From: Brevundimonas sp. LM2
GTDB lineage: Bacteria; Pseudomonadota; Alphaproteobacteria; Caulobacterales; Caulobacteraceae
NCBI RefSeq assembly: GCF_002002865.1
Contig: NZ_CP019508.1
Coordinates: forward strand, 3,452,501-3,516,500
Length of the DNA: 64,000 nucleotides
Direction of reading: 5' to 3'
This document shows, piece after piece, positions 33,467 through 58,385 of the stretch. Numbering within the stretch: the stretch's first letter is position 1; every line of letters starts with the position of its first letter. Below the pieces are notes generated by a model. That model made no database searches. It saw nothing but the letters and a program-made list of their open reading frames with translations, and had not been told where the DNA came from. A program made the position numbers and the translations under genes.

Positions 33467-33549
33467 GTGGGGTCACCGTTCACTGGGACCGACACGGCCC
33501 CTCTCGCAGAGCAATCTGGCGGGCACAGGTGAAAATCGGGTTTCGAGAA

Positions 33550-33987: not shown

Positions 33988-33997
33988 CTCTGGGCGC

Positions 33998-34384: not shown

Positions 34385-34392
34385 AACTAGAA

Positions 34393-34770
34393 TCAGGCGG
34401 CCAAAGCCATCCAGTTCTCGACAAGTTGGCCTTGAGTGAATGGCTTAGCAAGCTGAGCCTTAGCGCCGAATGTCTCTGCGAGTTTCATGTAGAAGGCAGG
34501 GCCGAGACGCCCCCCGCCGGTCACGGCAAGGACGGCCATGTCCGGCGCAATTGCGCCCAACTGCAGCAGCACCTCAACGCCGTCGACTTCAGGCAGGATG
34601 ATATCCAGCACCATGCTGGCGTCAGGATGCCGGCGAGCCATAGCCAACGCCTGACGACCATCTACGGCGTGGATCACTTCAACATCCGCCGACACCAGGG
34701 CCGCGCTGATTTCGGAGGACCAGAAGGGGTCGTCCTCGACGACAATGCATTTCGACACGGACGAACTCAC
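34393..34770 (-). CDS. Divergent stand-alone receiver-domain protein
   Basis: 125 residues. CIVVEDDPFWSSEI, SMVLDIILPEVDGVEVL (Asp) and AQLAKPFTQG (Lys) show a receiver, but the switch region reads VLAVTGGGRLGPA instead of the usual LTA, and it is the least canonical of the four. It follows the hybrid kinase by 54 bases. Confidence 0.87.
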   Translation of the reverse strand: MSSSVSKCIVVEDDPFWSSEISAALVSADVEVIHAVDGRQALAMARRHPDASMVLDIILPEVDGVEVLLQLGAIAPDMAVLAVTGGGRLGPAFYMKLAETFGAKAQLAKPFTQGQLVENWMALAA

Positions 34771-34824
34771 AGCGATGGTCGGACTACGCCCCCGGCTACA
34801 GAACGTCGTTTACTATAGCAACTT

Positions 34825-37551
<2,727 letters not shown>

Positions 37552-41715: not shown

Positions 41716-41810
41716 GGGCAAAGGGTGACCGGTTCGCCCGCAGACGCCAAGTCCTGCTTGTCGAGACACGGGCCCGCGGGGCGACGTCCATTCCGGGCCG
41801 TTGGGACGCG

Positions 41811-41870
41811 GGGGAAAGGAAGGGAGGCGGCGGGCGCTCCGATTGGGAGCGGACGATGGAGACCGCCGCC
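41811..41870 (+). promoter_or_regulatory. Shared ICE leader, copy 1 (before radC-like gene)
   Basis: Purine tract ggggaaaggaagggaggcgg (41811-41830), then a perfect 6-bp hairpin CGCTCC-GATTG-GGAGCG (41835-41851), then ATGGAG and ATG 41871. Four other ICE genes have the same order: purine tract, hairpin with a GATCGG-like loop, GGAG, start codon. Confidence 0.6.
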
Positions 41871-42551
41871 ATGAGACCCCTGCCCCGATCCCCGGCCGAC
41901 GTTCCGGATCCATACGCCTCAGAGCAGATCGGAGCCCTTGCGGGGCTGGACGATCCCACCCTTCTCGCGCTCCTGCTCACACGCGGCTCTTCGTGCGACG
42001 ATCCACACCAGATGGCTCGCGTACTGTTCGAGCGTTTCGGCAGTCTGGCGGCGATCGTCTCGGCGGACCTGCCAGAACTGGCCCGCGTGGGCGTCGGACC
42101 GGTCGGGCTGACCGACCTCAAGCTCATGCGGATCCTGTGCGAGCGCCTTGCGAGGTGCGAGGCCGCCCGACGGCCTGTCATCTCCTCGTGGTCGGCGCTT
42201 CTGTCCTATATCCGCATCGCCCTGGCCGAGGAGTCCCGCGAACAGTTTCGCGCCCTGTTCCTCGACCGCCGGAACCAGTTGATCCGCGATGAGATGGTCG
42301 CCTTCGGGACCGTCGATCACGCCCCGGTCTATCCCCGGGAGGTGGTTCGCCGGGCGCTCGATCTCTCGGCCTCCGCCCTCATCCTCGTGCACAACCATCC
42401 ATCCGGCGATCCCGAACCCTCGCGGGCCGATATCACCATGACCCGAACGGTCGCGGACGCCGCCAAACTCTTCGACATCCAGGTGCACGATCACCTGATC
42501 GTCGGACGCGACGGGACGGCGAGCCTGCGCACCCTGGGACCGCTCGGATGA
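41871..42551 (+). CDS. radC: RadC/JAB-domain protein
   Basis: 226 residues from ATG 41871, chosen because ATGGAG at 41856 looks like the Shine-Dalgarno element of the shared leader; starting at 41856 would add five residues. N-terminal helix-hairpin-helix (LALLLTRGSS, FGSLAAIVSADLPELARVGVG) and a C-terminal JAMM domain with LFLDRRNQLIRDE, VYPREVVRRAL and HNHPSGDPEPSRAD (metal-binding H-x-H...D). RadC-like proteins are common in ICEs and may be anti-restriction or DNA-processing factors. Stop overlaps the next ATG (ATGA). Confidence 0.9.
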   Translation: MRPLPRSPADVPDPYASEQIGALAGLDDPTLLALLLTRGSSCDDPHQMARVLFERFGSLAAIVSADLPELARVGVGPVGLTDLKLMRILCERLARCEAARRPVISSWSALLSYIRIALAEESREQFRALFLDRRNQLIRDEMVAFGTVDHAPVYPREVVRRALDLSASALILVHNHPSGDPEPSRADITMTRTVADAAKLFDIQVHDHLIVGRDGTASLRTLGPLG

Positions 42552-43501
42552 CCTTGGCCGGCATCGTCCGCACGCTCGGCGGCGACCTGTATCAGCACGG
42601 CCTTCGCGCCAACGTTCCAGCCCCTGGCCATGGGGCGCACGATCGGTCCGTATCCCTGCTGATGACCGACGGCCGGCTGGTCGTCCATTCGTTCGGCGCC
42701 GCCGACTGGCGAGAGGTCATGGATGATCTTCGGCGGCGCGGACTGATCGATGGAGACGCGCGGGTCGTCGGCGGCGGCAGCGGCGGCGCGCCGGCTCGCA
42801 ACGATGTGTCCCGGAGGCTGGCCGTCGCCCGGGACCTCTGGTCGGCCGGGCTGAGCACCGGGCCGACCGGTCTCGTCGCCCGCCATCTCGTATGCAGAGG
42901 CGTCGTCTGGTCTTCGGGGATCGGCGGCCTGCTCGAACATCCGGCGGCGCCCCTGTCCGTCTACCGTGCAGGGGGTCGTGTCAGCCGGGCGATGATGGCC
43001 CGCATCCAGTCCGTCGACGGCGCCACCACCGCCGTCGAACTGACCTATCTGAACCCGAGCGCGCGGCCGGCGACGGGGCTGCGCGTTCCACGCAAGACCG
43101 TGGGCACGGTGCCTGCGGGTTCGGCCGTGAGACTGTCTGGCGCGGCCGCCGCCATGGTGGTGGCCGAAGGGGTCGTGACGACGCTGTCGGCCATGGCCCG
43201 ATTCGGCCTTCCCGGATGGGCGCTGCTTTCGGCCGGCAATCTGGCGCGCTGGCATGCCCCGCCCGCCGCCCGGCGGGTCGTGATCGCCGGCGATCGAGGA
43301 GCCGCCGGTGAGGATGCGGCGCATCGGCTCTACCACACTCTGCGCTCGGCGGGCCTGGAGGCTTCGATCGCCCTTCCGCCCGCGCCGTGGGGGGACTGGA
43401 ACGAGGCCGGACCGTTCGGTCCAGGGAGGCAAAAGGGAGGGCGGGACGGGGCGCCGGAGACGCGGGGATCGGCCCCGCTCCCGCATGGAGAAACCCCATG
43501 A
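42548..43501 (+). CDS. TOPRIM-domain, primase-like protein (DUF7146-type)
   Basis: 317 residues. N-terminal CHC2-like part without the cysteines: VRTLGGDLYQHGLRANVPAPGHGAHDRSVSL and HSFGAADWREVMDDLRRRGL. C-terminal TOPRIM: AAMVVAEGVVTTLSAMARFG (Glu) and VVIAGDRGAAGEDAA (D-x-G type). Such proteins occur on phages and ICEs and may prime or process the transferred strand. It overlaps radC and the ParB-like gene by ATGA junctions. Confidence 0.8.
   Translation: MTLAGIVRTLGGDLYQHGLRANVPAPGHGAHDRSVSLLMTDGRLVVHSFGAADWREVMDDLRRRGLIDGDARVVGGGSGGAPARNDVSRRLAVARDLWSAGLSTGPTGLVARHLVCRGVVWSSGIGGLLEHPAAPLSVYRAGGRVSRAMMARIQSVDGATTAVELTYLNPSARPATGLRVPRKTVGTVPAGSAVRLSGAAAAMVVAEGVVTTLSAMARFGLPGWALLSAGNLARWHAPPAARRVVIAGDRGAAGEDAAHRLYHTLRSAGLEASIALPPAPWGDWNEAGPFGPGRQKGGRDGAPETRGSAPLPHGETP
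43424..43497 (+). promoter_or_regulatory. Shared ICE leader, copy 2 (before ParB-like gene)
   Basis: The purine tract (43424-43450, agggaggcaaaagggagg) and a perfect hairpin GCGGGG-ATCGG-CCCCGC (43462-43478), then ATGGAGA seven bases before ATG 43498. This copy lies wholly inside the 3' coding end of the TOPRIM gene, so the same bases serve two uses. Confidence 0.55.
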
Positions 43502-45561
43502 GCCGCATCGAAACCACCGCTCTGGCCGTCGCGCCGACGCCCTTCCAGATCACCGCCGCCCGCATCCGCAGCCTGGTGCCGCTGCGCGAGATCGATATCG
43601 CGCCGGAGAACCTCCGCTTCGGCGAGCCGCCCGACGACGACATTCCGCTTCTTGCCGAGACCCTGTTCGCGGCCGGCCAGTTGCAACCGTTGACGGTACG
43701 ACCGGCCCGGAACCGCAAGGAACGACCCAACATGGCCCTCGACGGTCGCCGGCGTCTACTCGCCCTGCACCATCTGGTCGAGGACGGCCGGATCGACGAC
43801 GGATTTCTCGTCGACGTCTTCATCGAGACCGACCCGGCCCGCCAGGCTGCGGCAGTGTTGCTGACGAACACGGCCGTCCCCGTCCACATCGCCGACATCA
43901 TCGCCGCCATCGGCCGGATGCTGAAGGGCAGGCTTGGCATCCCGGCGATGGCCCGGGCCCTCGGTTACGCCGAGGTCGATGTGAAGCGTCTGGCGGCCCT
44001 GTCGGCGCTTCCCGAAGACGCGCTCGTCGCGCTGAAATCGGGCCAGCTGAGCCTGCGACAGGCCAAGCTGCTGGCGCGCCTTCCGGACCGCGCCGAACAG
44101 GCGGAAATGGCTCGAATGGCGCGCGAGGGCCACGGCTTCCAGGACTGGCGGATCAAGGAACGCCTGGATGACGGCCGGGTCACGACGCGCGACGACCGCT
44201 GGGCGCTGGTCGGCCCCGACCGTTACGCCAAGGCCGGGGGCCGCATGGAGGTCGATCTGTTCGACGAGCTGGCGCCGGTCCTGCTCGATCCGGCCGTCCT
44301 GACCCGGACCTGGATGGAGCGGGTGCGCGAGGTCGCCCTGGCCTTCGAAGCGGAGGGGCTCGCCGTGCACGTCACGGCGGGCGACCGCCCCGAGCTTCCG
44401 GACGACCTCGAAACCCCCGGCTATGTCTACGGCGGCCAGCTGCCCGCCGCGGAGATGGCGACCTATCGCGATCTGAAGGACCGTTTTCACGGCACGGCGG
44501 ACAAGGTCGCCGAGGTTCTCTCGGCGACCGACGAGGCCCAGCCGGTAAACGGGGCCCTGACCGCCATGATCCACGCCAGACTGGCCATGGACCAAGCGGC
44601 GCTGCGCGGACGGCGGGTGACCACGCTCGTCCTCAGTCCCGCCGCCCGCACCGGGCTCGACATCGAATGCTATTCGCCGGTCGAGCCCGAACTCGAGGAT
44701 GAGTCCGTCGCTATCGAAGGCCGCGTCGAAACCCGAAACGAGATCACGCCCGTCTACGCGGCGCCGGAGGCGGACGCTCCGGAACCCGAGACCGACGGGG
44801 TCAACCACAGCCTCCATGCCGTCCGCACCGACGTCGCGACCCGGGGGCTGATCCGCGCGCTCGCCGACGATCCCGGGGCCGCTTTCACCGCGCTGATCGC
44901 CCGTCTGTTCGGGCAGGTGGCGATCCGGACCCATGGTCTGCGCTCTGGATCCGCCTTGTCCCTGACCGCATCCGCCTTCAATCCGACCGGAGGACGGGTC
45001 ATCGAGGCGCTCGACGGCGATGTTCGCCAGCGATTGGACCGGCGACGCGAAGCCTGGGAGGCGTCAGGCCAGACCGTCATCGCCTGGATCCACGGCCTCG
45101 CGCACGGTGAGAAGATGGCCCTCCTCGCCGAAGTGACGGCGCTGACGCTCGACCTTCGCGAAGAGCGGACCACCCTGATCCGACGCGCCGCCCGAGCCGA
45201 GGCCGCCGAGCTGGCCGCGCTGTGCGGCGCGGACATCACCCTGCATTGGACGCCGGACGCCGATTTCCTCAAACCGCATTCCAAGACGCTTTTGCTGGGC
45301 ATGCTGGAGGCCATGGGCGCGGACGACCCTCGGGCCGGAGCGCTCAAGAAGAGCGACCTGATCCCCTGGGTCGAGGAAAAGGCGGCCGAAAAAGTCTGGG
45401 CGCCCGCGAGCCTGTCCTGGACCGCGCCACCCGAAGGCGAGACCTGGGCCGATATCACCGACGAGGATGTCGAAGATCCGGTCCAGGATGACGCTGACGA
45501 GGGAACCGGCACCTTCGAGGTCACCCCCGCCGGGGAGGCCGCTCTGGATCACGCCGCCTGA
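43498..45561 (+). CDS. ParB-like partition/nuclease-domain protein
   Basis: 687 residues, start ATG 43498 overlapping the upstream stop. ParB N-terminal domain: LVPLREIDIAPENLRFG, LLAETLFAAGQLQPLTVRP and ALDGRRRLLALHHL, followed by a KorB/ParB-type helix-turn-helix (GIPAMARALGYAEVDVKRLAALSAL and GQLSLRQAKLLARL). The remaining 450 residues are ICE-specific and unknown, ending in an acidic tail. Proteins of this size are a marker of alphaproteobacterial ICEs and may stabilise or regulate the element. Confidence 0.88.
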   Translation: MSRIETTALAVAPTPFQITAARIRSLVPLREIDIAPENLRFGEPPDDDIPLLAETLFAAGQLQPLTVRPARNRKERPNMALDGRRRLLALHHLVEDGRIDDGFLVDVFIETDPARQAAAVLLTNTAVPVHIADIIAAIGRMLKGRLGIPAMARALGYAEVDVKRLAALSALPEDALVALKSGQLSLRQAKLLARLPDRAEQAEMARMAREGHGFQDWRIKERLDDGRVTTRDDRWALVGPDRYAKAGGRMEVDLFDELAPVLLDPAVLTRTWMERVREVALAFEAEGLAVHVTAGDRPELPDDLETPGYVYGGQLPAAEMATYRDLKDRFHGTADKVAEVLSATDEAQPVNGALTAMIHARLAMDQAALRGRRVTTLVLSPAARTGLDIECYSPVEPELEDESVAIEGRVETRNEITPVYAAPEADAPEPETDGVNHSLHAVRTDVATRGLIRALADDPGAAFTALIARLFGQVAIRTHGLRSGSALSLTASAFNPTGGRVIEALDGDVRQRLDRRREAWEASGQTVIAWIHGLAHGEKMALLAEVTALTLDLREERTTLIRRAARAEAAELAALCGADITLHWTPDADFLKPHSKTLLLGMLEAMGADDPRAGALKKSDLIPWVEEKAAEKVWAPASLSWTAPPEGETWADITDEDVEDPVQDDADEGTGTFEVTPAGEAALDHAA

Positions 45562-45581
45562 TCGTGCCGCCCTCGAACCGG

Positions 45582-45614
45582 AGCCCGCCCCGACCCCCGT
45601 CGGGGCGGGCTTTC
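45582..45614 (+). terminator. Rho-independent terminator after ParB-like gene
   Basis: A 13-bp perfect stem, AGCCCGCCCCGAC (45582-45594) with a three-base loop and its complement, followed by TTTCTC. It ends the radC-TOPRIM-parB operon 20 bases after the stop. Confidence 0.85.
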
Positions 45615-45637
45615 TCGTCGGGGTCCGCCGGCGACCG

Positions 45638-45722
45638 AAAGCCGGGAGGGAGGGAGAGCGGCGGCGAGCCTGGAGGATCGAGAGGGAGGAGCCCTCCGCT
45701 CCAGGCGTCAGGAGCCTCCGCG
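45638..45722 (+). promoter_or_regulatory. Shared ICE leader, copy 3 (before giant helicase)
   Basis: Purine tract AAAGCCGGGAGGGAGGGAG (45638-45656), an 8-bp stem GCCTGGAG (45668-45675) with CTCCAGGC (45699-45706) enclosing GGATCG and a second small hairpin GAGGG-AGGAG-CCCTC, then CAGGAG before ATG 45723. The start AAAGCCGGGAGG is shared with copy 4. Confidence 0.6.
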
Positions 45723-48700
45723 ATGACCCACGCCGCTTGCACGACCCCTTCCCTGTTCAACGCCCCGGGCCGGCCGGACCATGCCGCGAACATCCTCGCG
45801 ACCGCCCGCGCGCTCGCCGCCCAGCTTGCCCGGTCCCGTACGCTCGATCGCAGACTGGTCTCGTCGGTGATGACCACCACCTTCGGAGGGTCCGACGCCG
45901 AAGGGCTTTGGTCCTGGCGGGACGCCTATGAAGCGATAGAGGCGGCCAGCGTCCTTCATATCCGTCGGCTCGCGCCCCAGATCGGACGTCTGGAGGACGC
46001 GCCCGTAGAGATCGTGGGCCTGCTGGGCACCCTGAGCGCGCTCGGCCTGACACACAGCCGCCGCAGCGAGGCGCAGGTCGCGCTCGACCAGTTCTCCACG
46101 CCGCCGGAGCTGGCGGCCCTCGCCGTGCTCGCCGCCCGGGTAAGGCCGCAGGATCGGGTTCTGGAGCCCTCGGCCGGCACCGGCCTGATCGCCGTCATCG
46201 CCGAAGCCTGCGGCGGGACGCTGACGCTCAACGAGATCGCGGCGGGCCGAGCGGATCTGCTCGGTGGGCTTTTTCCGACGGCCACGCGATCTCGCCATGA
46301 CGGCCGCCATATCCACGACCGCATCCCGGACTCGGGCGGTTTCGACGTGGTGGTCTGCAATCCTCCGTTCTCGGACCTGGAGGCGCATCTGGTCGCCGGG
46401 TTCGCCGCCTTGGCGGACGGCGGGCGGCTAGCGGCCATCGTGCCGCTGACCGCCCTGACCGACGATCCCCTGCTGAACCGACTGGCGGCGAAGGGCTGCA
46501 TGATCGCCCGCATCGCCTTCCCCGCTCGGGCCTTCGCCAAACACGGGACCACGGTCGACACCGGACTGCTGGTCCTCGACCGAAGCGAACCGGACCCGCA
46601 TGTCGCGCCGCAGCTGAGCGCCGAGGATCTGGTGCAAGCCGCCGGGATGGTCGCCGCCTTGCCCGATCGTCGCGGCAGCCGGCCCCGCCAGAGATTTCAG
46701 GTGACCGCCGGCACCCTTGTGGCTCCGCGAGATCGATCGATCGCCCTGCCGTCCGGCCGTCTCGGGTTTCTCACCGGGGCGGCGCCTGTCGTGTATGAGA
46801 CCCGCGGCTGGACCGGCGAGGGCCGCGACGTCGGCCTCTACCAGGCGCACGCGCTGGCGCGGATCGTCCTGCAGACCGCGAGGCCGCATCCCTCCCCGCT
46901 TGTCGAGTCCGGCCCCATGGCTTCGGTGGCGCCGCCCGCGCCCACCTACCGTCCCATCCTTCCACCTGCCGTGTGCGCCGAGGGCCGTCTCTCGGACGCT
47001 CAGGCCGAGACGGTGATCTACGCCGGAGAAGCGCACGCGGGACTCCTGGCCGCCTGGTGGGCGCGCACCGAAGGCCCCCACCAGCTCGCCCTGTCGGCCG
47101 AGGACCGCGACGGGAGCTTCCAGCTGCGGCGCGGCTTCTTCCTCGGCGACGGCACCGGGTGCGGCAAGGGTCGCCAGATCGCGGCCGTGATCGCCGACAA
47201 CATGGCGCAGGGTCGAACCCGTGCGCTCTGGCTGTCCAGGAACGACGCGCTCCTGGACGATGCGCGGCGGGACTGGAGCGCCATCGGCGGGGGTGCCCAC
47301 GACATCGTGCCGCTCAACAGCTGGAAACTGGGCCAAGGCGTCCGCATGGACCGCGGCGTGATGTTCACCACCTATGCGACGCTGAGACAGCCGGCGCGCG
47401 GCGAGAAGGTCTCGCGGCTCGACCAGATCGTCGCCTGGCTGGGCGAGGACTTCGACGGCGTCATCGCCTTCGACGAGGCCCACGCCATGGCCAACGCGGC
47501 GGGTGGCGGAAAGGGCGCGCGCGGCACGCGAAAGGCGTCCCTGCAAGGCATGGCGGGCCTCGCCCTGCAGAACCGCCTGCCAAGGGCCCGCGTCCTCTAT
47601 GTTTCGGCCACCGGCGCCACGACGGCGGAGAACCTGGCCTATGCGTCGCGGCTCGGTCTCTGGGGCGGTCCTGACGCCCCATTCGTCTCCCGCGATGACT
47701 TCCTCGACGCCATGGACAAGGGCGGGGTCGCGGCCATGGAACTGGTCGCGCGCGAGCTCAAGGCTCTCGGTCTCTATGTGGCGCGCAGCCTGTCGTTCGA
47801 GGGCGTCGAATACGAGCCGCTGCGCCACGACCTGACGGAAGGCGACATCGCCATCTGGGACGCCTGGGCGGACGCCTTCCAGCTGATCCACGCCAATCTG
47901 GCCGAGGCCCTCAAGGCGACGGGCGTCAACGATGAGGAGGGCAAGGCGCGGAGCGGTCAGGCCGCCTCGGCCATTCATTCCGCATTCGAGGGTGCCAAGC
48001 TACGGTTCTTCGGTCACCTGCTGGCGGGGTTGAAGGCGCCGACCCTGACCGCCGCGATCCGCGAGGACCTGGCGCACAACCGCTCCGCCGTAGTCCAGAT
48101 CGTCTCGACCAACGAGGCCGTGATGGAGCGTCGGCTGGCGTCGATCCCGCCCGAGGAATGGAACAACCTGACGATCGACCTGACCCCGCGCGAATACGTC
48201 CTCGACTATCTGCGCGAAGCTTTTCCGATCACCCTGATGGATGCGATCGAGAGCGATGACGGAGGCGTTACCCTCGTGCCGGTAATGGTGGATGGACGTC
48301 CGGCGGTCAGTCAGGAGGCCCTGCGGCGACGCCAGGCCTTGATCGAGCGCATGGCCTGCCTTCCTGCCGTGCCGGGCGTGCTCGACGCAGTCCTCGACGC
48401 CTTCGGAACCGATGTTGTCGCCGAGATCACCGGACGGTCACGACGGATCGTGATGCGCGACGGGCGGCGTCTCGTCGAGCGGCGCGGCGCCTCGGCGGCC
48501 CGCTCGGAAACCGAAGCCTTCATGTCCGGCCGAAAGCGGGTCCTCGTCTTTTCGGACGCGGGCGGCACCGGACGCAGCTACCATGCCGACCTCTCGGTTC
48601 AGAACCAGCAGCGCCGCGTCCACTATCTCGTCGAGCCCGGCTGGAGGGCCGACGCCGCCATCCAGGGTCTCGGCCGCAGCCACCGCACCCATCAGGCCAG

Positions 48701-49991
48701 CGCGCCTTTGTTCCGGCCGGTGACGACCGACATTCACGGCGAGAAGCGGTTCACCTCGACCATCGCCCGCCGGCTGGACTCCCTGGGTGCCCTGACCCGG
48801 GGCGAACGCCGGACCGCCGGCGCCGGACTGTTCCGGGCCGAGGACAATCTCGAAAGTCCATGGGCGCGGCGGGCGCTCCTGGTCTTCTATGGCGCGCTCG
48901 GGTTCGGCGAACTCTCCTCCATGACGCTCGAGGTCTTCGAGACGAGGACGGGTCTCAAGCTGCGCGACGCCGATGGAGCCCTCAAGCCGTCCGACGACCT
49001 GCCGCCGATCCACACCTTCCTCAATCGGCTGCTGGCTTTGCGCATCGCAGACCAGAACGCCCTGTTCGCGGATTTCGACCGCATTCTCGGCGGGCTTCTG
49101 GAACGGGCGGCGGCGTCGGGCGATCTGGATCGGGGCCTGGAGGACATCGATGCCGAGGAGCTGGAGGTGCTCCAGGCGGAGACGATCCGGACCGACGTCT
49201 CGACCGGCGCGGAGACGGCTCTTGTGACCTTTTCGCTAAGGGTTCGGCGTGACGTGCTGAGCCCGGAGGACGCGTTGGTCCGGACCGCGAACGGAGCGTT
49301 CCGTCTGGCGGTCAACGCACGGTCGGGCCGGGCCGCTATCGTCGAGCTTGGGCTGACGACGACGACCGAAGAGGATCGGCTGGTGGCTGCCGTGCGAATG
49401 GTGCGTCCGGATCAGCATCAGGTCATGACACAAAAGGCCTTCGAGGAGTCCGCCTGGTCGGAAGCCGGTGAGGCGGAATGGCGATCCGTCTGGGACGCCG
49501 AAGTCGCCCGGATCGATCCGTGGCGCGTCCGCGAACTGACCCTGGCGACCGGCCTGCTACTCCCGATCTGGGGCCGCCTGCCCGCCAAGGGTTGCTCCGT
49601 CCGGCGCGTCCGGGCCCCGGACGGTCGGCGTTGGCTCGGCCGGGTTCTCGACGATGTCCAGGTGCGAACCCTGAAGACGGCCCTGGGTCTGACCACGGTC
49701 GGCGAAACCTGGGCGGACGGGGGGAGGACAGCAGCGGCGGTGCTCGACCGAAACGTTCAGCTTTCGCTGTCGGGCGCCCTGTGGCTCAAGCGATCCCGTG
49801 TCATGGACCGCTGGAGGCTGGAGATCGTCGGCGGTCGCACCGATCGCGACGCGCTCATCGCCCTCGGCTGCTTCGTCGAGATCATCGCCTATACGCCCCG
49901 GATCTTTGCGCCCGTCGATCGACCGGACATCGTCGAGGCGGTTCTGCGGCGCCACCCGGTGCAGTCGGTCCTCGACGGCACCGCGGCCTGA
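45723..49991 (+). CDS. Fused N6-adenine methyltransferase and Strawberry-notch-like helicase
   Basis: 1422 residues. The N-terminal third is a methyltransferase: QFSTPPELAALAVLAARV, VLEPSAGTGLIAVIAE (SAM binding) and VVCNPPFSD (catalytic NPPF near 213). The middle has a superfamily 2 ATPase with GDGTGCGKGRQIAAVIADN (Walker A near 476-485), ALWLSRNDALLDDARRDW and IAFDEAHAMAN (motif II near 584). The C-terminal helicase lobe of Strawberry-notch type includes FSDAGGTGRSYHADLSVQN and IQGLGRSHRTHQ. Proteins of this sort are typical of large ICEs and phages. The combination suggests DNA modification coupled to remodelling, perhaps to protect the element during transfer. Start ATG 45723 has CAGGAG upstream. 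Confidence 0.9.
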   Translation: MTHAACTTPSLFNAPGRPDHAANILATARALAAQLARSRTLDRRLVSSVMTTTFGGSDAEGLWSWRDAYEAIEAASVLHIRRLAPQIGRLEDAPVEIVGLLGTLSALGLTHSRRSEAQVALDQFSTPPELAALAVLAARVRPQDRVLEPSAGTGLIAVIAEACGGTLTLNEIAAGRADLLGGLFPTATRSRHDGRHIHDRIPDSGGFDVVVCNPPFSDLEAHLVAGFAALADGGRLAAIVPLTALTDDPLLNRLAAKGCMIARIAFPARAFAKHGTTVDTGLLVLDRSEPDPHVAPQLSAEDLVQAAGMVAALPDRRGSRPRQRFQVTAGTLVAPRDRSIALPSGRLGFLTGAAPVVYETRGWTGEGRDVGLYQAHALARIVLQTARPHPSPLVESGPMASVAPPAPTYRPILPPAVCAEGRLSDAQAETVIYAGEAHAGLLAAWWARTEGPHQLALSAEDRDGSFQLRRGFFLGDGTGCGKGRQIAAVIADNMAQGRTRALWLSRNDALLDDARRDWSAIGGGAHDIVPLNSWKLGQGVRMDRGVMFTTYATLRQPARGEKVSRLDQIVAWLGEDFDGVIAFDEAHAMANAAGGGKGARGTRKASLQGMAGLALQNRLPRARVLYVSATGATTAENLAYASRLGLWGGPDAPFVSRDDFLDAMDKGGVAAMELVARELKALGLYVARSLSFEGVEYEPLRHDLTEGDIAIWDAWADAFQLIHANLAEALKATGVNDEEGKARSGQAASAIHSAFEGAKLRFFGHLLAGLKAPTLTAAIREDLAHNRSAVVQIVSTNEAVMERRLASIPPEEWNNLTIDLTPREYVLDYLREAFPITLMDAIESDDGGVTLVPVMVDGRPAVSQEALRRRQALIERMACLPAVPGVLDAVLDAFGTDVVAEITGRSRRIVMRDGRRLVERRGASAARSETEAFMSGRKRVLVFSDAGGTGRSYHADLSVQNQQRRVHYLVEPGWRADAAIQGLGRSHRTHQASAPLFRPVTTDIHGEKRFTSTIARRLDSLGALTRGERRTAGAGLFRAEDNLESPWARRALLVFYGALGFGELSSMTLEVFETRTGLKLRDADGALKPSDDLPPIHTFLNRLLALRIADQNALFADFDRILGGLLERAAASGDLDRGLEDIDAEELEVLQAETIRTDVSTGAETALVTFSLRVRRDVLSPEDALVRTANGAFRLAVNARSGRAAIVELGLTTTTEEDRLVAAVRMVRPDQHQVMTQKAFEESAWSEAGEAEWRSVWDAEVARIDPWRVRELTLATGLLLPIWGRLPAKGCSVRRVRAPDGRRWLGRVLDDVQVRTLKTALGLTTVGETWADGGRTAAAVLDRNVQLSLSGALWLKRSRVMDRWRLEIVGGRTDRDALIALGCFVEIIAYTPRIFAPVDRPDIVEAVLRRHPVQSVLDGTAA

Positions 49992-50011
49992 GTTGGCGCC
50001 CGCGGGCGTCG

Positions 50012-50728
50012 TCAGATCCGCCAGGGGAAGGCGATCTCCGTCTCTCCGGTGACGGCGCCCGCCGCATCGAAGCGCCGTTCCCAGATTCGCCCGGCGCCCG
50101 AGCGATCGATGGCGACCACCGTGCTGCATCGGGTGCCGTAGAGGTCATTGCGAAGAAAGATCGGGGACGCATCGGGCGTGCGCCCGTCCTCCCGATCGTC
50201 CAGCCGCGCGAACAGACCCTCCGGATTCGTCGGGGCCTGTGCCAGCCAGGTCTGGGCGGCCGTCGTCAGCCGCTCCTTCCGGTCCCAGGGCGCGTCGAGC
50301 AGACCGTTGGAAAGCGCGTGCCACCCGGGCGCAAGGCGTCGCTCAAGCGGCGCCGGTCGATTGGTCCGCTCGCGCGCATCGTCCCCGGCGACGACGACGA
50401 GGTTGAACGGATTGTACCGGTCGGCATCGTGCGCCGCGAAGGGCGTTCGATGCACCAAGGCTCCGTGGACCAGTTCGCCGCGGCTGAGGCGGGTGGGGTC
50501 CGGCGGTCCCTGTCCGGTGATGTTCGTGACGACCGCGAAGCGGGCGTGGGTCTCGGAGACCCCCAGCCACATGCCGCCCGACTGCAGATCCCGGCCGCCG
50601 ATGACCCCGGAGCCGTCGGTCCAGCGCGCCAGGGGCGCGGACGGTCGAGCGTGGAGTTCGTCCCGATTGCCTGCCGCGACGAGCAGCCAGTCCGGATGGA
50701 TCGCCCACGCGAAAGTCAGAACGCACAT
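50012..50728 (-). CDS. NRDE-family (TANGO2-like) protein
   Basis: 238 residues. The N-terminus MCVLTFAWAIHPDWLLVAAGNRDELHARPS carries the Asn-Arg-Asp-Glu signature of the family with the N-terminal Cys nucleophile of the NTN-like fold, and ends with NDLYGTRCSTVVAIDRSG. Role unresolved; eukaryotic relatives handle haem or Golgi functions. It is the only minus-strand gene in the plus-strand block and converges with the helicase gene, so it may be separately acquired cargo. Confidence 0.88.
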   Translation of the reverse strand: MCVLTFAWAIHPDWLLVAAGNRDELHARPSAPLARWTDGSGVIGGRDLQSGGMWLGVSETHARFAVVTNITGQGPPDPTRLSRGELVHGALVHRTPFAAHDADRYNPFNLVVVAGDDARERTNRPAPLERRLAPGWHALSNGLLDAPWDRKERLTTAAQTWLAQAPTNPEGLFARLDDREDGRTPDASPIFLRNDLYGTRCSTVVAIDRSGAGRIWERRFDAAGAVTGETEIAFPWRI

Positions 50729-50783
50729 GCCCCACCATCGCGCGAAAGACGGTCAAAGGCGACATCGGGCTCCAGAACGGGTG

Positions 50784-50803
50784 ACCGGGCGAAAGCGCCC
50801 GGT
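50784..50803 (+). other. Perfect 8-bp hairpin before leader copy 4
   Basis: ACCGGGCG-AAAG-CGCCCGGT with no T-run after it. It sits between the start of the minus-strand NRDE gene and the leader of the SSB-like gene, and may insulate the two or stabilise an RNA end. Confidence 0.45.
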
Positions 50804-50806
50804 CCC

Positions 50807-50890
50807 AAAGCCGGGAGGAAGGGAGGTTGGGGGCGAAGACGCATCAGGGAGATCGGCTCCCCGGCGGCTTCGGATCAACAGGAGCCTGAC
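50807..50890 (+). promoter_or_regulatory. Shared ICE leader, copy 4 (before SSB-like gene)
   Basis: AAAGCCGGGAGGAAGGGAGG (50807-50826), then hairpin GGGAG-ATCGG-CTCCC (50847-50861), then CAGGAG eight bases before ATG 50891. Loop ATCGG is identical to copy 2. Confidence 0.6.
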
Positions 50891-51262
50891 ATGCAATCCA
50901 TGATGTTCACCGGCCGGCTGGCGGCCGACCCCCAGATCAGCCCGGACTTCGGCAAGGCGGTGTTCCGGCTTCTCGAAAAGCGCGGCGTCGACAGCGCCGG
51001 AAAGGACCGGCTCGTCGGAGTCAACTGCGTCAGCTGGTCGAAAGGCCTCAACGAAAAAGTCATCGCGCGCGGCCTGGCCCAGGGCTGCGAAGCGGTCGTC
51101 ATCGGGGCCTTCATCGACACGGCCTATGCGGCCAAGGGCGGTGCGGAGCGGACGGCCAAGGAGCTGGTGATCAACCGGCTGACCGTTCTCGATTGGGCCG
51201 AGGACCGAGGCGCGGCTCGCGCCGACGCCGACGCCGACGCCGACGCCCGCGTCGGCGCCTGA
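50891..51262 (+). CDS. SSB-like OB-fold protein
   Basis: 123 residues. MQSMMFTGRLAADPQISPDFGKAVFRLLEKRG and VNCVSWSKGLNEKVIARGLAQGCEAVVIGAFIDTAY follow the OB-fold SSB pattern (start, G-R-L-x-x-D-P, W motif), with LVINRLTVLDWAED at the end. It lacks the DDIPF-type acidic tip and instead ends in an (Ala-Asp)n run from a GCCGAC repeat. It probably binds the transferred single strand but cannot recruit SSB partners via the usual tail. Confidence 0.78.
   Translation: MQSMMFTGRLAADPQISPDFGKAVFRLLEKRGVDSAGKDRLVGVNCVSWSKGLNEKVIARGLAQGCEAVVIGAFIDTAYAAKGGAERTAKELVINRLTVLDWAEDRGAARADADADADARVGA
51221..51247 (+). repeat. GCCGAC tandem repeat in SSB-like gene
   Basis: Four and a half copies of GCCGAC encoding Ala-Asp repeats near the C-terminus. 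Copy number could vary by slippage in multiples that keep the reading frame. Confidence 0.75.
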
Positions 51263-51298
51263 TCTCGACCACCCTCAACTTATTTTCAGGAGACTGAC

Positions 51299-51718
51299 AT
51301 GCAAACCCTCATCATCGAAGGCTATCTGGCCGCCGACCCGTCCATCCTCGCCGCCCAGGGCTCGGGCAGGAAGCGGGCGAGTTTCCGGGTGCTGGAGACG
51401 ACCCGGTTCCGCAAGGCGGACGGCACGCCGGGCGAACGCACGACCGGCTTCAACTGCCTGTGTTTCAACGAGGCGACGGCCGAAAAATACATTGAGCCGT
51501 TCGCCAGGAAAGGCAGCCGGGTGGTCATCCAGGGTCACGTCGAGAACGACACCTGGACCGGCAAGGACGGGGTCGAACACTATGACCTGCGTCTGATCGT
51601 GGGCGACATTCGGCTGAAGAACCGGCGCGACCGGGACCAGGACGCGGAGACTGTGGCGAGCCGACACGTCCAGGAGCCGGCGAGCGGCTACGACCTGAAC
51701 GACGACATTCCGTTCTGA
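51299..51718 (+). CDS. ssb: Single-stranded DNA-binding protein
   Basis: 139 residues from ATG 51299 with CAGGAG upstream. OB-fold SSB: IEGYLAADPSIL, FRVLETTRFR, FNCLCFNEATAEKYIEPFARKGSRVVIQGHVEN, and the canonical acidic tip DLNDDIPF for binding replication and repair partners. It is the second of two adjacent ssDNA-binding genes and is followed by a terminator. Confidence 0.92.
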   Translation: MQTLIIEGYLAADPSILAAQGSGRKRASFRVLETTRFRKADGTPGERTTGFNCLCFNEATAEKYIEPFARKGSRVVIQGHVENDTWTGKDGVEHYDLRLIVGDIRLKNRRDRDQDAETVASRHVQEPASGYDLNDDIPF

Positions 51719-51738
51719 TCGAACCGAACGACCACGAG

Positions 51739-51769
51739 CGGCCTGGCGCGCAAGCGCCGGGCCGTTTTT
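51739..51769 (+). terminator. Rho-independent terminator after ssb
   Basis: CGGCC-TGGCGC-GCAA-GCGCCG-GGCCG then TTTTT. A perfect-looking 11-bp stem (one G-T pair) 20 bases after the ssb stop. Confidence 0.88.
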
Positions 51770-51775
51770 CCATGG

Positions 51776-51839
51776 CCGGAGGCAAAGGAAGGACGGACGC
51801 GGGGCGAGCCGATCGGGCTCGTTGAACGGGGAGTTTCCC
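51776..51839 (+). promoter_or_regulatory. Shared ICE leader, copy 5 (before gcrA-like gene)
   Basis: Purine tract ccggaggcaaaggaaggacg (51776-51795), hairpin CGAGCC-GATCG-GGCTCG (51805-51821), then GGGAG before ATG 51840. Starts directly after the ssb terminator, so it is the true 5' part of a new transcript. Confidence 0.6.
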
Positions 51840-52298
51840 ATGAAAGCCTCCGCCTGGACCGATGATCGTGTGGGTCGCCTGAAGACTCTCTGGCTCGCGG
51901 GCCAGAGCGCCGATGCGATCGCCCGCCACCTTGCCCACGGCATCACTCGAAACGCCGTCCTCGGCAAGGTGCGTCGTCTCGGCCTGTCCACGGGACGTCA
52001 GGCCGGCGTGGCGTCGCTGGCCAAGGTCCAACCTGCGCCGGCGCCGCGCCTGCGCTTGCCAGCGTCCGGGGCCCCGGTTACGGCATCGGCGTCTTCCCCG
52101 GAGCCCGGCCCGGCGACCCTGCAGTCCGTGGGCCGCGCCGACTGCCGCTGGCCTTTGGGGGATCCGCGCGCCCTGGATTTCGCCGTGTGCGGGCGGCGCG
52201 TCGCGCGCGGCGCCTATTGCGCGGACCATGCGGCGATCGCTTATCGACCCCGTCGAGAAACGCCGGCAGACCTCGACCGTCTGGCGCAGCTCGGGTGA
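51840..52298 (+). CDS. GcrA-family cell-cycle regulator carried on the ICE
   Basis: 152 residues. The N-terminal helix-turn-helix KASAWTDDRVGRLKTLWLAGQSADAIARHLA and ITRNAVLGKVRRLGLSTGR is the GcrA DNA-binding domain, and the C-terminus DCRWPLGDPRALDFAVCGRRV, YCADHAAIAYRP is the part that binds sigma-70. GcrA in Caulobacter acts with CcrM methylation to control S-phase genes. Here it is a horizontally carried copy, shorter in the linker than the chromosomal protein; it could link ICE genes with the host cell cycle. Followed by a strong terminator. Confidence 0.9.
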   Translation: MKASAWTDDRVGRLKTLWLAGQSADAIARHLAHGITRNAVLGKVRRLGLSTGRQAGVASLAKVQPAPAPRLRLPASGAPVTASASSPEPGPATLQSVGRADCRWPLGDPRALDFAVCGRRVARGAYCADHAAIAYRPRRETPADLDRLAQLG

Positions 52299-55014: not shown

Positions 55015-56265
55015 ATGCAGGTTCGAACTGCCATCGAGGCCCGTCTGATGCAGTGCGCGTCAGGCGATGTATCAACCCTCAAGATCAGACTTCCCACCCG
55101 TCTGAAGTCCGACAACACCAGCGTTCGGGTGGCTATGTTCCAGCGTCTCGCGGCGTCCCGGCTGTTCGCGTACGGAGACCGTTCCGGATGCCTCCGGGCT
55201 GCCCAGAACCGCTCCGGCCGCCCCTTCCGACTGGACGTTCGTCAGCGCGTCATGGTCAAGGCCCTGGTGTCCCGCCACATGGGCAAGGGGTTCGCCAGAG
55301 GCGCGGCGCTCGCCGCTCACGTATCCTATCTGGGGCGCGTCGGCGCGGGGGAGGACGGCGCCCAGGCGGAGTTCTTCGGCGCAGCGCGCGACACGGTTGA
55401 CGGTGCTGCGGCCACCGACGGCTGGGCCAAGGACCGGCACCATTTCCGCTTCATCATCAGTCCGGAGCACGGCGACCGGATCGCCGACCTCAAAGGCTAC
55501 ACCCGTGAGGTCATGGGGCGGGTCGGAGAGGACCTGGGCGAACCCACCCTGAACTGGATCGCGGTCTGTCATTTCGACACCGACCAGCCGCACGCGCACG
55601 TGCTGGTCCGCGGACGGCGCGCGGACGGCCGGGACCTGGTCATTCCGCGGGACTATATCGGCTATGGGTTCCGGGCCCGGGCCCAGGAGGTCGCCCAGGA
55701 ACGGCTAGGCGATCTGAGCCGCCAGGACGCGGAACGTCGGATCTGGAAGGAGACCGAGGCCGACAGGTTCACCGCCTTCGACCGTCGGCTGATGGCGGCC
55801 GTCGACGCGGATGGGAGCGTGGCCGACGGGGTCGGCGGTACCGACGCGTGGATGGCCTTGACCCGGGGGCGCCTGCGCCATCTCGAACGCATCGGCCTGG
55901 CCACGCCGGTCGGGCGGCGGTACCGGCTCGACCCGGATATGGAGCCGAAGCTGAGACGTCTTCGGCTCTCCAGGGACGTGATCCGGACGCTCAACCAGCG
56001 GCGGCTTGAAGGCGCGCACTCGGTCGACCAGTTGGGCAAGGCCCCGATACGCGGGCGTGTCGTCGCATCCGGGTTTCACGATGAGCTGGGCGGCTCCCCG
56101 TTCGTGGTGGTGCGTGGCGTCGACGGTCGCGAGCACTATGGCCGTCTCGGCCTCGGCTCCGCGCCGCCGAAGCTCGGCAAGGACATTGCGCTCTCTATGG
56201 ATGCGCGCGGCTTCGCCCAGATCGTCGGTGGACGCCAGCCGATGCAGGACCTTGGCCGTACTTGA
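55015..56265 (+). CDS. MOB-P/VirD2-like relaxase (DUF3363-type), short form
   Basis: 416 residues from ATG 55015. VMVKALVSRHMGKGFARGAALAAHVSYLGR contains the likely catalytic Tyr105, followed by HHFRFIISPEHGDRI (142-153) and WIAVCHFDTDQPHAHVLVRG (His186, His193, His195), the three-His metal site. The DUF3363 part follows (RHLERIGLATPVGRRYRLDP, IRGRVVASGFHDELGGSPFVVVRGVDG). Related ICE relaxases that I know run about 550-650 residues; this one ends where the DUF3363 domain would continue, so it may be truncated at its C-terminus. The nicking domain is complete. Confidence 0.85.
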   Translation: MQVRTAIEARLMQCASGDVSTLKIRLPTRLKSDNTSVRVAMFQRLAASRLFAYGDRSGCLRAAQNRSGRPFRLDVRQRVMVKALVSRHMGKGFARGAALAAHVSYLGRVGAGEDGAQAEFFGAARDTVDGAAATDGWAKDRHHFRFIISPEHGDRIADLKGYTREVMGRVGEDLGEPTLNWIAVCHFDTDQPHAHVLVRGRRADGRDLVIPRDYIGYGFRARAQEVAQERLGDLSRQDAERRIWKETEADRFTAFDRRLMAAVDADGSVADGVGGTDAWMALTRGRLRHLERIGLATPVGRRYRLDPDMEPKLRRLRLSRDVIRTLNQRRLEGAHSVDQLGKAPIRGRVVASGFHDELGGSPFVVVRGVDGREHYGRLGLGSAPPKLGKDIALSMDARGFAQIVGGRQPMQDLGRT

Positions 56266-56372: not shown

Positions 56373-56457
56373 TTTCACCGCTCGGTGAAACTGTCAAATT
56401 CAGTGAAAACCATTTGACATGGTTCACTGCAATAGGCATTTTCACCGGATGGTGAAA
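56373..56457. promoter_or_regulatory. Triple palindromic operator and promoter of AbiE-like operon
   Basis: Three inverted repeats in 85 bases: TTTCACCG-CT-CGGTGAAA (56373-56390), CAGTGAAAACCAT...ATGGTTCACTG (56401-56429) and TTTCACC-GGAT-GGTGAAA (56440-56457). The middle one contains TTGACA (56414-56419), a possible -35 box, and the last overlaps the likely start codon. In known AbiE systems the AbiEi antitoxin represses its own promoter through inverted repeats, so these are probably its operators. Confidence 0.7.
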
Positions 56458-57528
56458 CTGTATGATTCGGTAGAACTGGAAGTCGAGGCGGTTGCAGCGG
56501 TCGTCAGCCTGTTGAATGACGTGCCGGCCCTGACCGTGGGCGACGTGGTTCGCGAAGCCAACATGCCCGATCGCGGGGTGGACTTCAGGATCGACTTCGA
56601 CGTTGGGGGCTCAAGCCATATTCTTCTCGCCGAGGTGAAAACCTCGGGGTCGCCGCGAACCGCGCGTCACGCCATCGACCAGCTGATCAGCTATCAGTCG
56701 CGCCAGGCCGCGAAACACGGAAACTGGAACCCGGCCCTGGTCTTCGTCGCCCCCTATCTGTCGCCACAGGTGCGGGAGATGTGTCGGGACTTCGAGGTCA
56801 ACTACTGCGACCTGTTCGGCAACGCCCGGCTCGTGCTGCCCGGCCTCTACATCAACCGCGAGGTGGCCGAGACGCCGGCCGCCGAGAAGCGCGATCTCAA
56901 ATCCCTGTTCAAGCCGAAATCCGCCCGGATCCTGCGCTACCTGCTCAGGCCCGGCCAGGAACCCCGACGCCTGAGCGAGATCGCCGAGGCGACACAGGTC
57001 AGCATCGGCCAGGTCCACAAGCTCAAGACCGCCCTGCTGGAGCGGGACTGGATTGAGGAGACTCCGGACGGCGTCGTCGTCCGCAATCCGGACCAGCTCC
57101 TCGACGCCTGGCGTTCGGACAATGCCCCGGCGGGAACCCGGCGAGGCTACTACACGACGCTCCACGGCGGCCCGCTCGAGAAGGCGGTTGAAGCGGCCGT
57201 CAGGACCGCGGGCCCGCACGCCGCCCTGGCGGGCCGCTCGGCGGCGAACTGGCATGCGCCGTGGCTCGTGGCCGGTTCGGTCGAGCTCTATGCCGACCGC
57301 GGCGGCGCCGAGACCCTGGCGACGGCTCTGGCGCTCGTACCGGCGCCCAAGGGCCCCAATGTCTGGATCACGGTCCTGGAGGACGACGGACCGTTGATGG
57401 ATGCGGTTGATGTGGGCAGCGGGCTCAGGGCGACCAGTCTGGTTCAGACCTACCTCGACCTCTACCGGGGCGGCGAACGGGACCGGGAGGCGGCGGACCA
57501 TCTTCGTGCCGAGCGACTGCCATGGTGA
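56449..57528 (+). CDS. AbiEi-like antitoxin/regulator with a PD-(D/E)XK-like N-terminal domain
   Basis: 359 residues from ATG 56449; ATG 56419 in the same frame would add ten. The N-terminal 140 residues read GVDFRIDF...ILLAEVKTSG (Asp45, Glu62, Lys64) and QLISYQ (Gln78, Tyr82), a PD-(D/E)XK nuclease-like core with QxxxY motif. Then comes a winged helix (KSARILRYLLRPGQEPRRLSEIAEATQVSIGQVHKLKTALLERDWIEE) typical of AbiEi and a C-terminal domain of about 150 residues. AbiEi neutralises the AbiEii nucleotidyltransferase and represses the operon; here the next gene is such a nucleotidyltransferase, overlapping by seven bases. A nuclease fusion would be unusual and needs testing. Confidence 0.8.
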   Translation: MVKLYDSVELEVEAVAAVVSLLNDVPALTVGDVVREANMPDRGVDFRIDFDVGGSSHILLAEVKTSGSPRTARHAIDQLISYQSRQAAKHGNWNPALVFVAPYLSPQVREMCRDFEVNYCDLFGNARLVLPGLYINREVAETPAAEKRDLKSLFKPKSARILRYLLRPGQEPRRLSEIAEATQVSIGQVHKLKTALLERDWIEETPDGVVVRNPDQLLDAWRSDNAPAGTRRGYYTTLHGGPLEKAVEAAVRTAGPHAALAGRSAANWHAPWLVAGSVELYADRGGAETLATALALVPAPKGPNVWITVLEDDGPLMDAVDVGSGLRATSLVQTYLDLYRGGERDREAADHLRAERLPW

Positions 57529-58385
57529 AGCCGGCTGGTCCCCGGCCCAATCCGCACCCCTATGGGCCCCGAACCACCGAGGCCGTCAAACGGGTGCTGG
57601 TCGAGCTCGGCCAGGTGCTGGGCGACTACAGGGGCAAGTTCGCCATCATAGGCGGCAATGTGCCGTGGCTGCAGATTCCCAACGCCGACACGGTCCATAT
57701 CGGATCCATCGACATCGACCTGGCGCTGGACGCCGAAGCCCTGGCCGACGGCCAGTACAAGGGTCTCGTGGACACCCTTATGGCGGCCGACTATCGCCAG
57801 CCCGCAGACGGCGAAGTCTTCCAGCTGACCCGCGAGGTTCCCGGTGAAAACGGCGAGCCGGCGATCAAGATCGTCGTCGATTTCCTGATGCCCAAGCACG
57901 CGAAGATCAAAAGGAACCGCCCGCCGCTGATCCCTGACTTCGCAGTCATCCCGGCCAGCGGCGCGGACATGGCCTTGCGGTTCAACGACCTGATCGCCGT
58001 CGAGGCCGAGATGCCTGAAGGCGGACGCAACGAAGTCGAGCTGTCCGTGGCCACCATCCCGGCCTTCCTCGTCATGAAGGGGTTCGCCCTCGTCGGGCGG
58101 CTGAAAGACAAGGACGCCTACGATGTCTGGTACAGCATCCGGAACTACCCGGACGGGCTGGAGGCCCTGGTCCGGGACTGCCAGCCCCTGCTGAAGATCG
58201 ACACGGCGATGGAGGGTTTCGCCGGCATCGCCGGCAAGTTCAGGGACCGCGACTACACGGGGCCCGTCTCCGTCCGGCGTTTCGCTGCCGAACAGGGCAT
58301 CCTCGACGGTCGGGACGAGGAGGAATGGCAGACCGACGCTTTCGGCCAGATCGACGCCTTCCTAAAGGCGATCGCGATCCGATGA
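57522..58385 (+). CDS. AbiEii-like nucleotidyltransferase toxin
   Basis: 287 residues. KFAIIGGNVPWLQI and SIDIDLAL form the nucleotidyltransferase signature (GG...DxD) of the AbiEii/AbiGii family, with IKIVVDFLMPKH and AFLVMKGFALVGRLKDKDAYDVWYSIRNYPDG (the conserved Lys and KDAYD region). Type IV toxins of this family transfer nucleotides to tRNA. It overlaps the antitoxin gene by seven bases and the GIY-YIG gene by four. Confidence 0.85.
   Translation: MVKPAGPRPNPHPYGPRTTEAVKRVLVELGQVLGDYRGKFAIIGGNVPWLQIPNADTVHIGSIDIDLALDAEALADGQYKGLVDTLMAADYRQPADGEVFQLTREVPGENGEPAIKIVVDFLMPKHAKIKRNRPPLIPDFAVIPASGADMALRFNDLIAVEAEMPEGGRNEVELSVATIPAFLVMKGFALVGRLKDKDAYDVWYSIRNYPDGLEALVRDCQPLLKIDTAMEGFAGIAGKFRDRDYTGPVSVRRFAAEQGILDGRDEEEWQTDAFGQIDAFLKAIAIR

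Follow-up and report, generated by a model that had tools for sequence, protein, structure and literature searches.

The 64-kb stretch of the Brevundimonas sp. LM2 genome analyzed here (positions 3,452,501 to 3,516,500 of contig NZ_CP019508.1, hereafter the window; the genome is 3.56 Mb, in one contig) carries an integrative and conjugative element (ICE) in which five genes, encoding a RadC-like protein, a ParB-like protein, a strawberry-notch-type helicase, a protein resembling the single-stranded DNA-binding protein SSB and a GcrA-like protein (radC, parB, helicase, ssb1 and gcrA below), are each preceded by a variant of the same leader. Judging from comparisons of sequence, we consider it fairly probable (about 0.6) that these leaders represent a new family of structured cis-acting mRNA elements that co-regulate establishment genes. 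These leaders are 55-80 nt long. The five copies in the window are the following.

41808..41870, plus strand: leader 1, radC; purine tract from about 41811 (profile start 41815), hairpin CGCTCC-GATTG-GGAGCG at 41835-41851, Shine-Dalgarno-like GGAG, start codon at 41871 (an in-frame ATG also at 41856).
43425..43497, plus strand: leader 2, parB; tract from 43425 (profile start 43432), hairpin GCGGGG-ATCGG-CCCCGC at 43462-43478, start codon at 43498; overlaps the 3' end of the toprim open reading frame (ORF).
45638..45722, plus strand: leader 3, helicase; tract from 45638 (profile start 45645), outer stem 45668-45675/45699-45706, GATCGA at 45676-45681, inner stem 45682-45686/45692-45696, start codon at 45723.
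50807..50890, plus strand: leader 4, ssb1; tract from 50807 (profile start 50814), outer stem 50834-50840/50866-50872 (6 of 7 positions paired), inner hairpin GGGAG-ATCGG-CTCCC at 50847-50861, start codon at 50891.
51777..51839, plus strand: leader 5, gcrA; tract from 51777 (profile start 51784), hairpin at 51803-51823 with the loop GATCG, start codon at 51840.

The initial annotation of this region, made from the sequence alone, placed copies before these five genes, and all five are present at those places. The layout it described, a purine tract followed by a hairpin, GGAG and the start codon, stands, but the GATCGG loop that it took to be common to the copies does not: leaders 2 and 4 close on an ATCGG loop, the preceding G being paired, and in the helicase leader GATCGA is not apical, being located between an 8-bp outer and a 5-bp inner stem. 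The helicase, parB and ssb1 leaders share the plan of tract, outer stem, inner hairpin, outer stem and Shine-Dalgarno sequence, although only three of the five pairs of the parB outer stem seen in relatives form in the window copy; the radC and gcrA leaders have one hairpin only. Copy 2, described as lying inside a coding region, does overlap the end of the toprim ORF, but beyond the Pfam domain (the Toprim_3 match stops at residue 286 of 317). In 35 of 58 loci, the toprim stop codon lies within the leader; in 14 it precedes the tract, in 8 it coincides with or follows the parB start, and one locus is different. Just upstream of the helicase, ssb1 and gcrA tracts, the window contains GC-rich hairpins (45580-45625, 50775-50806 and 51735-51770, respectively); T-runs accompany some hairpins of this kind and are absent from most.

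Purine tract, loop and orthologous leaders

A helicase scan of genome contigs yielded 99 relatives, for which 80 loci were kept; the nearest relatives come from Brevundimonas and other Caulobacteraceae. The same genes carry orthologous leaders in elements of Brevundimonas, Caulobacter, Phenylobacterium and Asticcacaulis. With the window counted, a tract score of at least 9 is reached upstream of 36 of 54 radC, 62 of 67 parB, 64 of 76 helicase, 34 of 36 ssb1 and 34 of 37 gcrA genes; the remaining upstream regions (18, 5, 12, 2 and 3, respectively) were set aside, those of radC belonging mostly to Caulobacter and Phenylobacterium. Each gene has its characteristic spacing between tract and start codon (median 53 nt for radC, 67 for parB, 78 for helicase, 76 for ssb1 and 55 for gcrA), with the hairpins no farther than about 25 nt from the start. 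A constant position just upstream of coding starts is as expected of a cis-regulatory mRNA leader. Among the loci, L077 (minus strand, near 180) has a stretch at a contig end that resembles an adapter by eye, and L009 (near 1490) a TTAGGG-type repeat followed by N; both are probably assembly artefacts.

The tract is described by a 14-nt profile with the consensus [GA][GA]AGGAAGGG[CA]GG, trained on 253 regions upstream of the five genes. Across the window, both strands included, only the five leaders score above 13 bits (15.7-19.6 bits, the next best site scoring 12.8), which shows specificity but is not an independent test, as the window's own upstream regions are among the 253. In 1.27 Mb of relative loci, the profile finds 247 sites above 13 bits, 185 of which lead into homologs of the window genes; of the other 62, 17 are on the minus strand. 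When 180 dereplicated leaders are pooled, conservation begins at position -7 of the tract, with an extra purine block, and from -30 to -8 no single letter exceeds 50% and no promoter-like block is apparent. An element-encoded antisense partner of the tract was also considered and dropped, the only other-strand profile matches above 11 bits being those at 58409 (12.8 bits) and 7588 (11.5 bits).

The loop behaves differently from the tract. Hairpins of at least 5 bp with a GAT[CT]G apex are not rare, 32 being listed in the window (both strands, two palindromes counted twice); a purine stretch of at least 14/16 lies upstream of just four of them, all of which are leaders, and the scan missed the helicase leader. 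Among orthologs, the GAT[CT]G apex occurs in 24 of 30 ssb1, 11 of 29 gcrA, 5 of 44 parB, 1 of 37 helicase and 3 of 25 radC leaders; its sequence is free in radC and largely so in parB, and GATCGG was rejected as a general recognition signal. A looser motif, GAYNG, is kept in 24 of 44 parB, 16 of 29 gcrA, 29 of 37 helicase (as an internal loop), 25 of 30 ssb1 and 4 of 25 radC leaders. The pattern GGGAGG-N30-60-GATCGG proved too loose as a search pattern, with 38 matches in the LM2 genome.

Stem pairing and the strand that folds

Pairing was assessed in one alignment per gene. Removal of duplicates and odd lengths left 27 radC, 48 parB, 44 helicase, 30 ssb1 and 28 gcrA leaders; rows were then dropped by hand from the radC (L023, L064, L067), parB (L047, L052, L068, L078) and helicase (L026, L035, L051, L063, L076) sets, followed later by L081 and L082, and the window sequences of radC and gcrA were put in manually, giving final alignments of 44 parB, 29 gcrA, 37 helicase, 30 ssb1 and 25 radC leaders. 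Standard pairs fill 87% of the stem cells in parB, 90% in gcrA, 95% in helicase, 94% in ssb1 and 98% in radC, far above the 27-68% obtained in all five genes when the partner is shifted by 1-3 columns. Cells changed on both sides exceed the shuffled mean in parB (100 versus 48.4), gcrA (14 versus 6.1), helicase (36 versus 17.2) and ssb1 (18 versus 6.6), in each case with none of 500 shuffles reaching the observed count, whereas the radC stem hardly varies (2 versus 0.3, reached by 13 of 500). The claim of the initial annotation that stem letters differ while pairing is kept is thus borne out against the slid controls for five genes and, on cells and score, against shuffles for four, hardly for radC. 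It had named the lack of compensatory stem changes and of copies in related elements as refuting; both are found.

The outer stem of parB, which adjoins the Shine-Dalgarno sequence, is the clearest example, with GCGCC/GGCGC in 15 rows, GCCGG/CCGGC in 11, GACTG/CAGTC in two, and further variants in single rows. Such wholesale replacement of letters between clades with the pairing maintained is unlike an operator and bears on the idea that the common part is a double-stranded DNA site bound by a protein, with the palindromes as operator half-sites. The GATC-containing palindromic apices, and the GcrA-like and ParB-like DNA-binding proteins encoded alongside, would suit such a site; the position locked to the start codon and the strand asymmetry described next would not, and we consider an operator highly unlikely.

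In the leader structures, read on the sense strand, G-T cells outnumber A-C cells by 190 to 21. Three ssb1 pairs, in which G-U is the commonest form, account for 77 of the G-T cells, and 113 remain. Because the structures had been predicted with G-U allowed, the count was repeated with structures predicted on the reverse complement, where sense G-T is still ahead (132 versus 75). RNAalifold gives the sense strand a better energy than its complement in parB, gcrA, helicase and ssb1; in radC the two are nearly level (-21.7 and -22.1). A mild bias in the same direction at fourfold-degenerate sites (T/(T+A) of 0.61) contributes but cannot yield 9 to 1. The G-T excess and the sense-strand energies therefore indicate that the folding molecule is most likely mRNA. 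Where the initial annotation left the choice between a structured RNA and a common protein-binding element, the former is favored and a protein-DNA site disfavored.

The same asymmetry is relevant to the possibility that the leaders are single-stranded DNA promoters or priming sites of the Frpo/ssi kind, that is, that the folded T-strand is transcribed early in the recipient by host polymerase. The genes (SSB, ArdC, ParB-like, RadC) resemble those of leading regions and are all on one strand, and the structures are repeated before individual genes. Nevertheless, the excess of sense-strand G-T over A-C is in the wrong direction for a folded template strand, the hairpins are close to the start codon, and there is no conserved -10/-35-like block; nor is there a sigma-70-like site on either strand of 41.1-52.5 kb, a weak test given that it used an E. 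coli-type consensus with 0.4 sites expected by chance and that alphaproteobacterial promoters differ. On balance, single-stranded promoters appear quite unlikely.

Another possibility is that the leaders act on transcription, as antitermination or anti-Rho loading sites that help in passing intergenic hairpins. A hairpin of at least 7 bp lies no more than 85 nt upstream of the tract in 42 of 55 helicase, 21 of 28 ssb1 and 18 of 31 gcrA regions, compared with 247 of 1000 random ones, and these hairpins leave room for an antitermination role. The radC (10 of 31) and parB (12 of 57) regions are at background, however, and hairpins trailed by a T-run (4 in 8) number only 11 in helicase, 7 in gcrA and one in parB, with none in ssb1 or radC. 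Furthermore, a terminator cannot be overcome with the help of a site that lies beyond it, and no NusG-like gene was detected among the element genes scanned. We regard antitermination as unlikely.

Several observations weigh against a family of co-regulating mRNA leaders. Rows were dropped by hand before counting, and the sequences are related, so that cells are not independent events. The stricter counts, those of changed pairs and of further pair types, are the least misled by relatedness and are not above shuffles for parB and gcrA, mixed for helicase, fair for ssb1 and uninformative for radC: the number of double-changed pairs is reached by 175 (parB), 500 (gcrA), 25 (helicase), 22 (ssb1) and 159 (radC) of 500 shuffles, and that of pair types by 126, 53, 403, 1 and 500, respectively. 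Hence much of the covariation signal comes from few clade-wide stem replacements. The ssb1 leaders also conserve G/C letters between -55 and -16 (taken gene by gene, conservation farther upstream otherwise amounts to two weak positions in helicase and one in gcrA leaders). The predicted accessibility of the Shine-Dalgarno sequence is only middling, 0.42-0.58, and the element genes that were scanned revealed no RNA-binding regulator.

Matches across genes and a sister form in other Alphaproteobacteria

A covariance model, R1, built from the 44 parB leaders only (with E-values from short calibrations) also matches the leaders of other genes. In the window and the 80 loci (1.33 Mb, both strands), R1 gives 186 matches at E<=1, all of them on the strand of the helicase. 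The window matches are at 43432 (54.3 bits, a member of the training set), 41815 (E 0.046), 50814 (E 0.11) and 45645 (E 0.84); the window gcrA leader is not among the matches at E<=1. We examined the genes behind 157 sites, namely the 150 best matches and 14 added by hand, with overlaps merged. These are parB (63), ssb1 (26), helicase (15), gcrA (14), radC (7) and toprim (1); of the 31 sites left, 10 precede an ArdC-like cluster (the one representative tested matches ArdcN with E 9e-26 and MPTase-PolyVal with E 3e-34), 8 a short unassigned family, 4 a family with a sub-threshold PAPS-reductase match only, and 9 other genes, at least one of these sites (L048:13886) actually being a gcrA leader.

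In 61 whole genomes searched at E<=0.05, R1 matches 15, all from Brevundimonas, and among 142 genomes drawn from the class, the LM2 genome alone matches. One of the 15 matching genomes (G001) has four parB leaders and one gcrA leader, with the genes confirmed, and no helicase match; therefore the leader is not tied to the helicase. The LM2 genome itself has a second helicase copy (C1:404908-409118) that is frame-broken, with one TGA, and retains a conserved leader of its own (locus L020); an R1 match at C1:402548 lies close to it, upstream (region G000:C1:402548-409118; loci L016, L020, L135). Two weak matches of 27 bits outside known leaders, G020:C1:1269856 and G033:C108:7212, may be due to chance.

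Helicase relatives from other Alphaproteobacteria that are 46-50% identical have a different conserved leader. Nearly all copies shown of these distant helicase leaders (L101-L116) contain a GAGAGAGAGCG block. For this class-wide set, RNAalifold reports covariation and a long imperfect stem with a local alignment (L109 and L111 left out, L115 without the core) and nothing with the alignment A6, and no structure is claimed.

A sister form of the leader is present in twelve 20-kb regions. Here the tract GAGAGUGAGAGG is followed by GUGACGGG...CCCGUC with an inner CGAGAGAGAGGCUCUCGG hairpin; the hairpins are nested, and the outer stem ends directly before the Shine-Dalgarno GGAG. This form precedes ParB-like genes that are 23-28% identical to that of the window where aligned, and also genes that are ArdC-like by eye. 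Fourteen hand-picked sites fold together (RNAalifold -55.0, covariation 23.5), with 95.6% of cells paired, and every covariation measure is above all 500 shuffles: 7 double-changed pairs versus 1.7, 11 double-changed cells versus 2.1, and 17 further pair types versus 13.2. G-T cells number 25 and A-C cells 6.

A model built from these 14 sites, R2, gives 57 matches at E<=0.01 in 27 of 385 genomes of the class, some of which are training genomes. Of 398 genomes drawn from the phylum, 33 match, all 33 being Alphaproteobacteria. A BLAST search with one copy finds 96 of 72,556 plasmid records, including 16 from Methylocystis, 14 from Bradyrhizobium, 12 from Mesorhizobium and 6 from Paracoccus. At ten plasmid places that were inspected, the gene behind is annotated as ParB-family in five, as DUF932 in two (NZ_CP123850.1, 115450-115530; NZ_CP035515.1, 35350-35395) and as hypothetical in one; of the remaining two, one lacks a listed gene directly behind and one is unannotated. 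The leader may thereby mark the DUF932 family, which is without known role, as one of establishment genes. Applied to 14 Caulobacteraceae loci and the window, R2 yields 15 matches (E 9e-5 to 0.95), 11 of them at tract or leader places (window ssb1, E 0.95) and four elsewhere, two of these on the minus strand. The matches at Caulobacteraceae leaders make common descent of the two forms plausible but not proven.

These results also bear on the simplest explanation, that the leaders are ordinary purine-rich ribosome-binding regions with chance hairpins. The commonness of GATYG-apex hairpins in the window speaks for it, as does the pairing of the tracts with the tail of 16S rRNA: this pairing is strong, about as good as or better than that of the true Shine-Dalgarno sequence, yet its energies are near those of shuffled tracts and clearly better in ssb1 only. 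Pairing with the anti-Shine-Dalgarno sequence was accordingly rejected as not specific, except perhaps in ssb1, and a ribosome standby site is not claimed. Chance does not account for the specificity of the tract in the window, pairing above the slid controls, R1 matches across genes on one strand only, or the existence of the sister form, and this explanation appears extremely improbable.

Proposed function and comparison with known systems

The genes behind the leaders belong to a plus-strand block of radC, toprim, parB, helicase, ssb1, SSB and gcrA.

41871..42551, plus strand: radC, RadC-like JAB domain (Pfam E 2.6e-42).
43498..45561, plus strand: parB, ParB helix-turn-helix domain (Pfam E 1.9e-5).
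45723..49991, plus strand: strawberry-notch-type helicase, AAA_34 and Helicase_C_4.
50891..51262, plus strand: ssb1, SSB-like (Pfam SSB E 0.022, weak, under the curated cut-off).
51840..52298, plus strand: gcrA, GcrA-like (Pfam E 7.4e-31).

Between the helicase and ssb1, a TANGO2-family gene (50012-50728) is encoded on the opposite, minus strand. A relaxase-like gene with DUF3363 occupies 55015-56265, followed at 56419-58385 by a gene pair with AbiEi-like and weak AbiEii-like matches and then a gene with a GIY-YIG domain. The minus strand of the window encodes type IV secretion components (TrbI, CagX, VirB8, TrbL, a TraG-type protein and a pilin), and within this region (33041-37551, minus strand) four response-regulator-only genes lie beside a hybrid histidine kinase.

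If the leaders are mRNA elements, each would consist of a polypurine tract, a spacer and one or two nested hairpins, then the Shine-Dalgarno sequence and start codon, repeated before ICE establishment genes (RadC, ParB-like, helicase, SSB-like and GcrA-like, with ArdC and others in relatives), which would thereby come under one post-transcriptional control. The tract could be the entry site of a shared factor, either the 30S subunit or an RNA-binding protein, and the hairpin beside the Shine-Dalgarno sequence might set the life of the mRNA or its translation, so that the genes would rise and fall together, most usefully on arrival in the recipient. We infer such coordination from the shared architecture and distribution of the leaders.

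The leaders bear on how elements outside Enterobacteria rapidly make anti-restriction, SSB and partition-like proteins after entry. A bolder proposal, which we offer tentatively, is that the Caulobacteraceae and GAGAGUGAGAGG forms make up an Alphaproteobacteria-wide superfamily, a post-transcriptional switch that conjugative plasmids and ICEs have in common: a single factor, either supplied by the host or entering with the DNA, would read tract and hairpin and open the ParB, ArdC, SSB, helicase, RadC and GcrA mRNAs at the same time, directly after entry. At the RNA level, this would be the counterpart of the Frpo promoters of enterobacterial leading regions. The leader would then predict establishment genes in unannotated elements, as whatever gene stands behind it, and may help to find a shared factor that binds RNA. 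With the sister form present on plasmids of rhizobia, Paracoccus, sphingomonads and methanotrophs, this type of leader would be general.

Searches against Rfam give no match at the leaders, either at gathering scores in the whole window and in six Caulobacteraceae loci or at E<=10 in 36-60 kb of the window; in nine helicase-leader loci (E<=1) and three sister-form regions (E<=2), only sub-threshold matches appear, one of which, mir-207, overlaps a helicase leader. A text search limited to open-licence papers found no report of the element. The nearest described motifs are the radC RNA motif and STAXI. The former stands before radC, integrase and antirestriction genes. It is a structured proteobacterial RNA that has been classed as likely to be cis-regulatory (RF01754; Weinberg et al. 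2010, PMC2864571). Its model has 149 positions, compared with the 55-80 nt of the leaders, none of which matches Rfam; a direct RF01754 search of the LM2 genome gave no match, but neither did the controls. STAXI (RF01728) lies near SSB, antirestriction, topoisomerase and integrase genes of Enterobacteriales and forms tandem pseudoknots with UUCG loops, and the question of RNA or single-stranded DNA was answered there for RNA (PMC2864571). The leaders likewise lie by SSB- and antirestriction-type genes and raise the same question, but they consist of a polypurine tract and one or two nested hairpins, belong to Alphaproteobacteria and have no Rfam match; no pseudoknot search was made.

The Frpo/ssi promoters, as described in PMC11541004, are also structured elements repeated before individual establishment genes, such as those for SSB and anti-restriction proteins. 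By that description, Frpo carries -35 and -10 elements in the folded DNA strand, whereas none are seen here (with the weak E. coli-type consensus) and pairing is tuned for the sense strand. Finally, in the STAB-SD mRNA stabilizer of cry3A and other genes, a sequence resembling a Shine-Dalgarno site lies upstream of the true start without directing translation (PMC4113751). Stabilization of this kind is one candidate for the action of the tract. Except in ssb1, the tract matches the 16S tail only slightly better than shuffled tracts do, and, unlike in STAB-SD, a conserved hairpin follows; the onset of conservation at the tract would fit the position of STAB-SD at the 5' end of the mRNA.

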